From: Jannaschia sp. GRR-S6-38
Lineage (GTDB): Bacteria; Pseudomonadota; Alphaproteobacteria; Rhodobacterales; Rhodobacteraceae
Assembly: GCF_029853695.1 (NCBI RefSeq)
Contig: NZ_CP122537.1
Coordinates: 62,001-126,000 of the forward strand
Length of the DNA: 64,000 nt
Reading direction: 5' to 3'
Under the pieces are notes generated by a model. That model was given only the letters and a program-made list of their open reading frames with translations, did not search any database and had not been told where the DNA came from. Shown here piece after piece: positions 24,115 through 28,823 of this stretch (position 1 is the stretch's first letter; each line of letters opens with the position of its first letter). The translations under genes were made by a program, and so were the position numbers.

Positions 24115-24139
24115 AAAACGGGGGCCCCGAAGGGCCCCC
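24115..24139 (-). terminator. Intrinsic terminator downstream of nrdJ and the GIY-YIG gene
   Basis: On the minus strand GGGGGCCC and GGGCCCCC pair around the loop TTCG and are followed by CGTTTTCATT. It lies 18 bp after the second copy of the nrdJ tail, exactly where the original nrdJ terminator would be expected if the GIY-YIG gene is an insertion. Confidence 0.8.
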
Positions 24140-24157
24140 GCCGCCTGTCCGCCGGCC

Positions 24158-24208
24158 TCAGCTACACCCGCTTGTTCCGCCGCAGGTATTGCATTCCGAA
24201 CTCTTCAT
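24158..24208 (-). other. Duplicated nrdJ 3' end, readable as a 16-codon ORF
   Basis: Read on the minus strand this encodes [16 protein letters not shown] then TGA. The last 11 residues are identical to the C-terminus of NrdJ. Over 38 aligned bases the two copies differ at 6 positions, all at codon third positions and all silent (for example AAT/AAC, ACA/ACC, TGT/TGC). Its ATG overlaps the stop of the GIY-YIG gene (ATGA), so it could be translated by coupling. It is either the displaced original nrdJ end or a donor-derived end brought in with the nuclease gene. Whether the peptide is made is unknown. Confidence 0.75.
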
Positions 24209-24600
24209 TTGGCGCGACGCTGAAGAAGCGCTCGCACAATAGGGTTCGCGCTCGGGTTATCTCGAACGTTTAGAATCGGCTGGTACCTTTTGATCAGTCG
24301 CTCTTCCAAAGCGTCCAATCCAACCTCAGCGAGCGCATTCATTGGGTACACCGCAAGGTGTGTTGCGCCGAGTTCCCTCGCCACCTGGAGCTTCTCATGT
24401 CCTGAGATGCGCGCGCGAAGTCTCTTTGCCTTCCCGATGTAAAGGACCTGCCATGCAACTCCATCGTTGTAGCAAAAGGCGTAAATTGATGGGCCGAAGT
24501 CCGGAACGCCGAGTAGCTGCCATAAGCCGAAGCGATAGATGATGCCGCTCTCGTCGCTGAACGGAAGCTCTTTCTTCATTTCAGCCCCAAGGGCATTCAT
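24205..24600 (-). CDS. GIY-YIG nuclease-domain protein inserted at the 3' end of nrdJ
   Basis: A 131-residue protein whose centre is a GIY-YIG domain: SIY at 38-40, VLYIGKAKRLRAR at 52-64 with the conserved Arg, a GATH segment at 78-81, and the end LEERLIKRYQPILN (98-111) with the candidate catalytic Glu. Its ATG shares a base with the nrdJ stop (TGATG), suggesting coupled translation. Base composition is unlike its host: the 60 bases from 24241 contain 31 G/C, against 44 of 60 in nrdJ from 24901. It is followed by a second nrdJ tail. A selfish or homing-type insertion is the best reading. Small stand-alone GIY-YIG proteins with other roles also exist. Confidence 0.8.
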   Translation of the reverse strand: MNALGAEMKKELPFSDESGIIYRFGLWQLLGVPDFGPSIYAFCYNDGVAWQVLYIGKAKRLRARISGHEKLQVARELGATHLAVYPMNALAEVGLDALEERLIKRYQPILNVRDNPSANPIVRALLQRRAK

Positions 24601-27600
24601 CAGCTGCATCCGCTGGTCCCCCCGCAGGTGTTGCATTTCATGCAGGTGCCGTTCCGCACCAGCGTGTAGTTTCCGCACTCGCCACAAGCCTCGCCCTCGT
24701 AGCCCTGCATCTTCGCCTTCGTGCGGGCGTCCATGCTCGTGGCGGCCACGGCGATCGTCGAGGTCTCGGCCTTCAGCGCCACCGTGCCGCCCGTCTGGGC
24801 GATCTCGGCGGCGACGGCATCCATGCCGCCGCGCAGCGCGACCAGATCCTCGGGCAGGCGCTTGCGCAGGTAGCCCGAGGAGGTCACCGACTTGATCACC
24901 TCCAGCGACTTCGACGCCGCGGACTGGGTGGGCGCGCTGACATTGCCGTCGCCCGTCCCCGGGTCCTCCGCTTCGCCGATCGAGTCGAAGGTCGTGCCCT
25001 GCGGCTTCACATGGGCCAGGTCCTCGCGGTCGAGATAGCTGACGGCCAGTTCGCGGAAGATGTAGTCGAGCACCGAGGTGGCGTTCTTGATCGAGTCGTT
25101 GCCCTGCACCATCCCCGCCGGTTCGAACTTGGTGAAGGTGAAGGCGTCGACGAACTCCTCGAGCGGCACGCCGTATTGCAGCCCCACCGACACCGCGATG
25201 GCGAAGTTGTTCATCATCGCCCGGAAGCCCGCACCTTCCTTGTGCATGTCGATGAAGATCTCGCCTAGGTTGCCGTCGGCATATTCGCCGGTCCGCAGAT
25301 AGACCTTGTGCCCGCCCACGACCGCCTTCTGGGTGTAGCCCTTGCGGCGCTCGGGCATCTTCTCGCGGTGGCTGCGGACCATCTCCTTGACGATGATCTT
25401 CTCGATGACCTTCTCGGCCAGCACCTCGGCCTTCTGCGCTGAAGTGCCCGTCTCCAGAACCTCGGCGGCCTCGTCGTCATCCTCGACCAGCGAGGCGGCG
25501 AGCGGCTGGCTCAGCTTCGAGCCGTCGCGATAGAGCGCGTTGGCCTTCACCCCGAGGCTCCAGGACAGCTCGTAGGCCGCCTTGCAATCCTCGATCGTGG
25601 CCGCGTTCGGCATGTTGATCGTCTTCGAGATCGCCCCCGAGATGAAGCTCTGCGCGGCGGCCATCATCCGGATGTGGCTGTCCACCGACAGGAAGCGCTT
25701 GCCCTTCTTGCCGCAGGGATTGGCGCAGTCGAAGACGCTCAGATGCGCGTCCTTGAGGCCCGGCGCGCCTTCCAGCGTCATCGTCCCGCAGACATGGTCG
25801 TTCGCCGCGTCGATCTCGGCCTTCGAGAAGCCGAGATGGCGCAGCAGGTCGAAGCTGGGATCGTTCAGCTTGGCCGCCGGGATGCCCAGCGTCTGGGTGC
25901 AGAACTCCTCGCCCAGCGTCCACTGGTTGAAGACGAAGCGGATGTCGAAGGCCGAGGGCAGCGCGGCCTCGATCTTCTCGATCTCGGCCTTGCCGAAGCC
26001 GTGCCCGATCAGCGCCGTGTGGTTGATGCCGGGCGCCTGGCCGAGCGAGCCGTGACCCACCGCGTAGGCGATGATCTCGGCGATCTGCGCCTCGCCGTAA
26101 CCTAGCTTGCGCAGGGCGGCGGGGACCGACTGGTTGATGATCTTGAAATAGCCGCCGCCGGCCAGCTTCTTGAACTTCACCAGCGCGAAATCGGGCTCGA
26201 TCCCGGTGGTGTCGCAATCCATCACCAAGCCGATCGTGCCGGTGGGCGCGATCACCGTCGATTGCGCGTTGCGGAAGCCATGCTTCTCGCCCTGCGCGAC
26301 GACCTCGTCCCAGATCTCCGCGGCGAGCTTGGTCAGCGTGGTGTCAGGGCAGCCCGCGATATCCAGCGCGACCGGCGCGACGGCGAGCTGCTCGTAACCC
26401 TCGGTCTTGCCCATCGCGGCGTTGCGGTGGTTGCGCATGACCCGCAGCATATGCGCGCCATTCTTCTTGTAGCCCGGGAACGGGCCCAACTCGCCCGCCA
26501 TCTCGGCCGAGGTGGCGTAGCTGACGCCGGTCATCAGCGCGGTCAGCGCACCGCAGAGCGCGCGGCCCTCGCGGCTGTCATAGCCCAGCCCCATGTTCAT
26601 CAGCAGGCCGCCGATATTGGCATAGCCCAGGCCCAGCGTGCGGAAGTCGTAGCTGCGCTGCGCGATCTCCTTGGAGGGGAACTGCGCCATCATCACGCTG
26701 ATCTCCAGCGTAACGGTCCAGAGCCGCGAGGCGTGGATGTAGAGCTCGTGATCGAAGCCGCCGTCCGCCTTGAGGAACTTCAGCAGGTTCATCGAGGCCA
26801 GGTTGCAGGCCGTGTCGTCGAGGAACATGTATTCCGAGCACGGGTTCGAGCCGCGGATCGGGCCGTCTTTGGGGCAGGTGTGCCAATCGTTGACGGTGTC
26901 GTGGAACTGGATGCCCGGATCGGCGCAGGCCCAGGCGGCGTGGCCCACCTTGTCCCACAGATCGCGCGCCTTGACGGTCTTGGAGACCTTCCCGTCGGTG
27001 CGGTTGGTCAGCTCCCAATCGGCATCCTTCTCGACGGCGTGCAGGAAGGCGTTGGTGACGCGGACCGAGTTGTTGGAGTTCTGGCCCGAGACCGAGTTGT
27101 AGGCCTCCGAGTCCCAGTCGGTGTCGTAGGTCGGGAATTCGATGCTGTCATAGCCCTGCCGCGCGTATTGCAGGACGCGCATGATATAGGCTTCGGGGAT
27201 CATGTGCTTCTTGGCGGTGCGGATCACCGCCTTGAGCGACTCGTTGACCGCCGGGTCGCAGGCATCGTCGAGCGAGCCGTCCCAGGCGCGCACGGCCTGC
27301 ATGACCTCGGTCAGCTGCGCCTGGTGCGCCTTGGAGCCCGCGACCAGCGCCGCGACCTTCTGCTCCTCGATCACCTTCCAGTCGATGAACTGCTCGATAT
27401 CGGGATGGTCCATGTCGACGATGACCATCTTGGCCGCGCGGCGCGTGGTGCCGCCCGACTTGATCGCGCCCGCCGCGCGGTCGCCGATCTTCAGGAAGCC
27501 CATCAGACCGCTCGACTTGCCGCCGCCCGACAGGCGCTCGCCCTCACCGCGCAGATGGCTGAAATTCGTCCCCGTGCCCGAGCCGTACTTGAAGAGCCGC

Positions 27601-28265
27601 GCCTCGCGGACCCACAGGTCCATGATGCCGCCATCGTTCACCAGGTCGTCGCCAACGGACTGGATGAAGCAGGCATGGGGCTGCGGATGCTCGTAGGAGG
27701 ATTTCGACTTCACCAGCTTGCCGGTGAACGGATCGACATAGTGGTGGCCCTGCGCGGGGCCATCGATGCCATAGGCCCAGTGCAGGCCGGTGTTGAACCA
27801 TTGCGGGCTGTTCGGCGCGCCCATCTGGCGGGCGAGCATGACGCGCATCTCGTCGAAATAGGCGCGCGCGTCGTCTTCGGAGGAGAAATAGCCGCCCTTC
27901 CAGCCCCAATAGGCCCAGGCGCCCGCCAGCCGGTCGAAGACCTGCTTGGACGAGGTCTCGCCGCCGTAGCGCGCCTCCTCGGGCAGCTCGGCCAGTGCGG
28001 CCTCGTCGGCGGTGCGGCGCCACAGGAACTCGGGCACGCCCTTTTCCTTGACGGCCTTCAGCCGCGCCGGGACGCCGGCCTTGCGGAAGTATTTCTGCGC
28101 GATCACGTCGGAGGCGACCTGGCTCCAGCCCTCGGGGATCTCGACCGCGTCCAGCTTGAACACCGTGGTGCCGTCCGGATTGCGGATCTCCGAGGTGGTC
28201 GTGGTGAAGGCCAGCGCCGCGTAGGCGTCCTTGCCGGCTTCGGTCAATTTCCGTTCGATGCGCAT
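24600..28265 (-). CDS. nrdJ: Adenosylcobalamin-dependent (class II) ribonucleotide reductase NrdJ
   Basis: A 1221-residue enzyme reducing ribonucleotides to deoxyribonucleotides without oxygen, using a B12-generated thiyl radical. The catalytic N-x-C-x-E is SNPCSE with C476 as the thiyl site; C487 in ACNLASMNL and C199 in HACFIQS are the redox pair, with the 11-residue C476-C487 spacing seen in other class II enzymes. The C-terminus (about 1191-1221) is a Cys-rich tail (CGECG, then CMKCNTCGG) that passes electrons to the active site. Start at ATG 28265, with AGGAG upstream. An NrdR box precedes it, and the stop is shared with a GIY-YIG gene. Confidence 0.95.
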
Positions 28266-28746
28266 AATCGGGGCTCTCCTGCCAAATGTCCGTGTCCTGC
28301 CGGACGCGCGCACTCTCCCGCCCCCGGCGTCTGCCACCCGGGCGGGCCCCTTTCGCCGGGGCCGGTGCTTTCGTCCTGTTCCGCCGGACCGCACCATATA
28401 TGGTGTATACCCCCGACAGGACCGCAAATTAGAGGGCGTTCGCGCAAAGCGTCAACGATTCGTCACAAAGAAATTGTGGGCCGTTCCTGTGGGTAAGTTG
28501 TGAGCCCCGGCTGAGCGCTTGTCGCCGCCGCGCCGAGGCGGTGGAGCGTCGCGCGCGGGGCCCGTTTCGCAGGGGTTTACGCAAGGTCCTCCCTGTGGAG
28601 CGATCGGGGAGAAATCGCCGTACCCCGTCGCCGGCGATGTGGTTTTCGGAGCACAGCGAAGCCCGGACCCCGCACCACGACATGCCCTCGCCGCCCCGCA
28701 CCCCTCGGGGCGATGCCCCTCCGGGCCGCAAGATCTTGTGTCCGAC
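28266..28746 (-). other. nrdJ leader and promoter region, no gene
   Basis: This 481-bp stretch between nrdJ and tRNA-Pro shows no convincing coding frame. It contains the NrdR-type palindrome at 28391-28406, an AT-richer block at about 28435-28500 and a DnaA-box-like TTACCCACA (minus strand, 28496-28488). The leader between the palindrome and the start codon is about 125 nt and G+C-rich. I looked for a cobalamin riboswitch B12 box and saw none. Confidence 0.6.
28391..28406. promoter_or_regulatory. NrdR box upstream of nrdJ
   Basis: CACCATATATGGTG (28392-28405) is a perfect 14-bp palindrome and fits the NrdR consensus ACAC-W-ATATAT-W-GTGT closely. NrdR is the zinc/ATP-cone repressor of ribonucleotide reductase genes. 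Boxes usually come in pairs about 21 or 31 bp apart; only one is evident here. It lies about 126 bp before the nrdJ start. Confidence 0.75.
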
Positions 28747-28823
28747 TGGTCGGGGCGGCGAGATTCGAACTCACGACCCCCTGTACCCAAAACAGGTGCG
28801 CTACCAGACTGCGCCACGCCCCG
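28747..28823 (-). tRNA. tRNA-Pro (anticodon TGG), CCA encoded
   Basis: The minus strand folds as a 77-nt cloverleaf: acceptor CGGGGCG with CGCCCCG, anticodon stem CCTGT/ACAGG around loop TTTGGGT (anticodon TGG), and T-arm GAGTTCGAATC. The discriminator is A and CCA is encoded. Confidence 0.95.

Follow-up and report, generated by a model that had tools for sequence, protein, structure and literature searches.

The 64-kb stretch of DNA analysed here (the window), from a Jannaschia-group alphaproteobacterium, carries, on its minus strand, the nrdJ gene of a class II (B12-dependent) ribonucleotide reductase (RNR) at 24600..28265, which matches the Pfam families Ribonuc_red_lgC, Ribonuc_red_2_N and TSCPD; we set its start at MRIERK..., and the mechanical ORF starts at 28427. 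A tRNA gene lies upstream of nrdJ on the same strand (28750-28823). The nrdJ reading frame is unbroken up to its stop at 24602-24600, with the last codons ...TGCAACACCTGCGGGGGGACCAGCGGATGCAGCTGA ending at 24600 (minus strand), and the final 11 codons, the stop and 2 bases (24600..24637, minus strand) make up tail 1, the 3′ end in use. On this stop begins a 131-aa ORF for a predicted GIY-YIG nuclease, P0001 (24205..24600, minus strand, stop at 24207-24205), whose ATG at 24600-24598 shares bases with the nrdJ stop (TGATG). A second ATG at 24609, within the nrdJ tail, would give a 134-aa version (P0002), and the two starts, ATGCAGCTGATG, lie at 24609-24598, bases that the nrdJ frame reads as Cys-Ser-stop. 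Visual comparison suggests that the longer version begins like a Roseobacter protein described below (MQLMNAL versus MILKNTNAL).

Nine bases behind the nuclease stop lies tail 2, a second copy of the nrdJ 3′ end (24158..24195, minus strand), contained in a predicted 16-codon ORF (24158..24208, minus strand) whose ATG overlaps the nuclease stop (ATGA). The nuclease ORF fills 396 of the 442 bases between the starts of the successive tail copies, and its G+C is 0.545 versus 0.66 for the nrdJ ORF. The sole terminator-like stem-loop between 24000 and 24800 lies 3′ of tail 2 (24117..24142, minus strand); as shuffled versions of this region average 0.7 such sites, the stem-loop is weak evidence when taken alone. 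The preliminary description of this DNA had reported the C-terminus encoded twice around the nuclease gene, only silent third-position differences between the copies, a nuclease start on the nrdJ stop, low G+C in the nuclease gene and a terminator only beyond the second copy, and our analysis confirmed each of these, adding the start at 24609.

The two tails are identical at 32/38 bases, and all six differences are silent third positions, an outcome with a probability of about 5-6e-4 under random placement. When the 599 bases behind nrdJ were shuffled 2000 times, the best match did not exceed 24, and the next best match to the 38-base tail anywhere in the window was also 24. A repeat finder (20 bases) run on the window did not report the tail repeat; the tails share no exact match of 9 bases, its seed length. 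The tails are alike at 30/36 positions, and pairs of genus members agree on average at 30.5, so the divergence between the tails is like that between two species.

Either tail may be the native one, and both look foreign to the genus by some measure. The codon log-likelihood under the genus was -10.5 for tail 1 and -14.1 for tail 2. Tail 2 encodes its last Cys with TGT, as is typical of the genus, and its codons AAT and ACA are rare there (1/19 and 0/19, respectively); its best match was 34/36 outside the genus versus 31 inside, and 7/19 genus mates likewise matched better outside. Within the last 480 codons of the window's nrdJ, a gene that is otherwise genus-like (total +50.4), the least genus-like segment was the final 24 codons, which together with the stop (24600..24674, minus strand) form a possible co-converted foreign tract. 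The evidence for this tract is modest: the suffix score of the nrdJ end ranked second of 20, behind a gene that is un-genus-like throughout, in 5/19 genus mates a stronger segment of this kind occurs somewhere in nrdJ, and the 29-codon cut of the foreign-tract test was picked after inspecting the codons. The codon signal is modestly compatible with an imported tract that would span the nrdJ end, the nuclease gene and tail 2.

P0001 scored 33.5 bits against the Pfam family GIY_YIG_2 (PF20815; cut-off 22.4), with the match split in two stretches, and its residues at conserved columns are S38-I39-Y40, Y54-I55-G56, R64, E99 and N111. They comprise the GIY and YIG strands followed by the Arg, Glu and Asn positions and would have the usual roles of GIY-YIG residues, which are also given in PMC1564403. 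The predicted structure has a GIY-YIG fold (pLDDT 87.7), with the UvrC N-domain as the nearest solved fold, and the model of the 131 residues consists of the GIY-YIG domain plus a short N-terminal strand pair. By profile and by model, P0001 is a member of the GIY-YIG nuclease superfamily and a predicted nuclease. Homing nucleases usually carry a separate sequence-specific DNA-binding domain, and a single small domain is unusual among them; no separate DNA-binding domain was found for P0001 in Pfam, NCBIfam or the structure model.

Close relatives of P0001 are rare. Searched alone against 5.8 billion proteins, P0001 found only itself at E 0.001 (46 shared-word candidates), a joint profile with its Roseobacter homologue P0071 found just these two at E 0.01 (125 shared-word candidates), and a four-sequence profile recovered 63 proteins at E 0.01, among them P0001 and its relative P0004; the majority of the 63 are shorter than P0001. 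A PF20815 match is present in 5/390 genomes of the order, the window's genome among them, and P0001 itself matched mostly UvrC-length frames in these 390 genomes, the top standalone match lying at soxB in G215. The best match in PHROGs was an endonuclease (phrog_1111, E 1.6e-4). No close relatives were found in viral contigs, phages or species contigs, part of which were scanned with six short peptides, and the plasmid search returned two distant cyanobacterial matches. These two matches aside, the searches for P0001 gave no phage or plasmid carrier, and the same holds for the proteins P0067 and P0071.

As the preliminary description had proposed, we compared nrdJ 3′ ends among relatives, and empty sites were found. 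Each of the 19 other genomes of the genus that were compared has a single nrdJ tail, and their matches to P0001 lie elsewhere than at nrdJ. No second tail was found among 105 distinct other nrdJ loci (29/29 of one set and 79/80 of a named set, minus three duplicates), in a sample where one locus of the named set (L175) stops at a contig end and was not counted, and where L164, L183 and L195 have fewer than 300 bases behind nrdJ, such that a second tail could fall outside. The window's genome falls in the genus of Jannaschia, to which L127 and L130 (two Jannaschia sp.) and L200 (J. helgolandensis) belong; these are the loci of G012, G001 and G005, respectively. Since all 19 genus mates are single-tailed with no P0001 match at nrdJ, sequence comparison gives good support for a real insertion that entered the nrdJ 3′ end in the window recently.

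Among the 80 named loci, only Roseobacter sp. MH60115 (L144) has a nuclease homologue directly behind nrdJ; this protein, P0071, shares 31% identity with P0001. The locus has an empty-site twin in Roseobacter sp. WL0113 (L169), with an identity of 0.77-0.94 along nrdJ in 150-base windows, and the two form the one empty/occupied pair at the nucleotide level. The insert of 407 nt, nearly all of it nuclease ORF, lies between TGAG and GAAAACG, and homology resumes after it; because two bases at the join can be assigned to either side, it starts 1-3 nt past the nrdJ stop. No copy of the tail was found at L144. Insertion of such nuclease genes beside a conserved target gene recurs, with empty alleles.

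For the wider nuclease family, a 17-sequence profile was run on 385 genomes of the class and 390 of the order, setting UvrC aside. At most 11 first-look candidates were scored per genome, and all family counts are therefore lower bounds; the second G454 place, the places in G610, G594 and G337, and several weak matches were left out. We checked 27 alphaproteobacterial standalone loci (18 from the class and 9 from the order set) for RNR neighbours and found an RNR large-subunit gene directly before the nuclease gene at four, with nrdJ in the window, L087 (G034) and L099 (G549), and with nrdA at L090 (G600), where the nuclease gene lies between nrdA and nrdB; the families of these RNR genes were confirmed. 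The other 23 have no RNR neighbour. The probability of this adjacency is about 1.5e-7, assuming 3 RNR genes, two sides and 3500 genes. P0001 and P0004 (from L087) were part of the profile, and the location of P0004 was known when the profile was made; excluding the window and L087, 2/25 lie beside RNR genes (P about 9e-4). The preliminary description had reasoned that a nuclease gene found mostly away from nrdJ would speak against site-specific insertion, and this is the distribution of the wide family, whereas near relatives of P0001, just the window and the Roseobacter nrdJ case, are too few for a judgement.

Three members look active (window, L144 and L090) and have a low G+C of 0.545, 0.52 and 0.50, versus 0.66, 0.61 and 0.65 in their RNR genes. 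The nrdJ-linked members at L087 and L099 are degenerate-looking at the catalytic positions and host-like in G+C. In P0004 (L007 1489-1899) and P0069 (L099 1471-1818), several catalytic positions are missing and the frames are still open; from their sequences, the two look like decayed or domesticated nucleases. The distribution is patchy, as a family member lies behind nrdJ in 1/20 genomes of the genus, P0069 occurs in 2/17 genomes of its taxonomic family and P0067 in 1/4, the taxonomic family of P0004 consisting of one genome. The RNR-linked proteins are just 19-31% identical to P0001.

Family members also lie tail-to-tail with the 3′ end of soxB (sarcosine oxidase beta) in two genera, at L057/L116 (G215, 1462-1863) and L124 (G078, 1492-1907), and the member at L101 abuts an FAD oxidase gene related to soxB. 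The soxB 3′ end is, judging by these loci, a second recurrent insertion place of the nuclease family. ORFs near the members at L088, L117 and L119 look to us like IS1595-type transposases, and these members are possible passenger genes of insertion sequences. The genes beside the members at L100 and L122 we take, from their motifs, to be type I restriction-modification subunits.

A flanking direct repeat was found at 1/28 family loci, the window, with a score of 20 versus at most 10 in 8 shuffles. An ungapped scan of about 280 bases on each side found no second tail at the other 27, whose repeat scores stayed inside or close to the shuffle range, the highest being 12 versus 10 in shuffles (L097) and 11 versus 8 (L087). 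Insertion behind RNR genes recurs, and tail restoration is, as far as seen, a single case and not a rule of the family; it may have arisen incidentally during a single repair event. The preliminary description had seen in the insert a mobile gene that restores the nrdJ end, and of this view the recent insertion and the recurrent association with RNR genes were borne out, but tail restoration as a rule was not.

Taken together, a standalone GIY-YIG nuclease gene has probably entered the nrdJ 3′ end recently via homing-like double-strand-break repair, and homing is likely from the sequences at hand. The nuclease, or a relative of it, would have cut an empty nrdJ close to its end, and repair would have copied in a foreign segment consisting of an nrdJ 3′ end and the nuclease gene. 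Homology would have guided the join next to nrdJ, which would thereby remain intact and end in an imported or hybrid tail 1, and on the far side, which is intergenic and would lack homology, an end-joining or short-homology event would have kept or brought tail 2 before the terminator. The TGATG overlap would couple translation of the nuclease to the nrdJ stop, and the silent changes in tail 1 may shield the occupied site from cutting. We favor a homing-like insertion because of the single tails in genus mates, the Roseobacter empty/occupied pair, the enrichment at RNR genes, the low G+C, the conserved GIY-YIG positions and predicted fold, tails that differ like those of two species, and the final 24 codons being least genus-like. 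It is weakened by the 23/27 members not beside RNR genes, the modest tail-tract signal, a tail copy in only 1/28 loci, and the lack of a separate DNA-binding domain and of a carrier. That a minimal GIY-YIG homing nuclease targets class II RNR 3′ ends, carries a silently changed tail, immunises the occupied site and thereby invades an essential gene harmlessly, as a bacterial counterpart of the fungal C-terminus swappers discussed below, is a possible reading that we offer tentatively.

The foreign-looking final 24 nrdJ codons would suit any import, including one in which the nuclease gene was passive cargo, with an nrdJ tail and an unrelated nuclease gene arriving together on foreign DNA by ordinary homologous or illegitimate recombination that the nuclease did not drive. 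Such an import would also fit a single known double tail and a nuclease with no recognised DNA-binding domain, but we consider it unlikely, as one nuclease family lies behind RNR large-subunit genes at 4/27 loci and at L144, and the Roseobacter insert is hardly more than the nuclease ORF. A different role for the protein, as a useful gene of the RNR operon that serves the host in repair, phage defence or RNR control and is kept by selection, would be in line with the TGATG overlap and with P0004 and P0069, which lose catalytic positions yet stay open with host-like G+C; the patchy distribution and the low identity among the RNR-linked proteins make this improbable.

The 38-base direct repeat that flanks the insert could in principle come from a local duplication, in which the tail was copied inside this genome, for instance as a target-site duplication, and later diverged. 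However, six of six silent differences (P about 5e-4) are improbable for a drifting untranslated copy, and the species-like divergence of the tails equally argues against duplication followed by drift, so this origin is very improbable. A spliced or bypassed insert is hardly credible: phage RNR genes often harbour introns, inteins or translational bypass elements according to the available part of a review (PMC3653736), but nrdJ has its own intact tail and stop ahead of the insert, intron families gave no match up to E 1, and the insert is nearly filled by the nuclease ORF. A group I or II intron or an intein was rejected, as no intron RNA or splicing domain was found and the nrdJ frame is uninterrupted.

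Homing-like insertion, if cutting is true, would show how a nuclease gene invades an essential bacterial gene without disabling the host, and would offer a compact, testable system of 131 aa and a 38-base target tail. One family of very small nucleases lies repeatedly behind RNR large-subunit genes; one case has an exactly matching empty site, and another a silently diverged duplicate of the gene's tail.

Among known proteins, the UvrC N-domain and Cho are the nearest fold and profile matches of P0001. UvrC and Cho are repair nucleases with further domains. In contrast, P0001 is standalone and falls far under the NCBIfam cut-offs for UvrC and Cho.

Homing nucleases encoded by free-standing genes have been documented extensively in phages and organelles. 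Our literature search, which covered titles and the starts of abstracts with subscription literature sparsely represented, found no report of such nucleases at bacterial chromosomal RNR genes, or of a tail-restoring nuclease insertion in one, and the phrase "ribonucleotide reductase" is absent from the accessible main text of PMC1564403. For phages, the available parts of three papers describe T4 mobE at nrdA/nrdB, whose AUG overlaps the nrdA stop (UAAUGA; PMC2988022), phage T5orf172 nucleases, 33% of whose neighbourhoods contain RNR genes (PMC10448857), and split phage RNR genes in review (PMC3653736), and among them is also mobE inside nrdA of Aeh1, another phage nuclease at an RNR gene. The window nuclease resembles these in lying directly behind an RNR large-subunit gene, with a start that overlaps the stop of an essential neighbour. 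Unlike T4 mobE, which is an HNH nuclease, it is a GIY-YIG protein, chromosomal and with no phage carrier found, and the window has a restored C-terminus, which is not mentioned in the available text of the three papers.

The closest architecture is that of fungal mitochondrial genes. Although the preliminary description had presented the arrangement as unfamiliar, the available part of PMC3630166 already describes a swapped C-terminus, a nuclease ORF and a displaced native C-terminus in Glomus (atp6, atp9, cox2 and nad3) and, as cited there, in atp6 of Allomyces macrogynus. In the same text, the endonuclease ORF at Glomus atp9 is GIY-YIG, relatives have empty alleles, and the two atp6 copies are 63.5% alike in DNA and 91% in protein; PMC6279837 is another fungal mitochondrial paper. 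The window shares with these a working C-terminus, a nuclease ORF, a diverged second C-terminus and empty-site relatives. It differs in being a bacterial chromosome with a class II RNR gene, a 38-base tail, a single-domain nuclease and a mobility deduced from sequence, and in the window either tail may be native, tail 2 being no more genus-like than tail 1 by codon likelihood, so the fungal pattern of a native tail downstream is not evident. By analogy, we read the insertion in the window as a bacterial chromosomal variant of an architecture published for fungal mitochondria, with RNR-linked nucleases published for phages.
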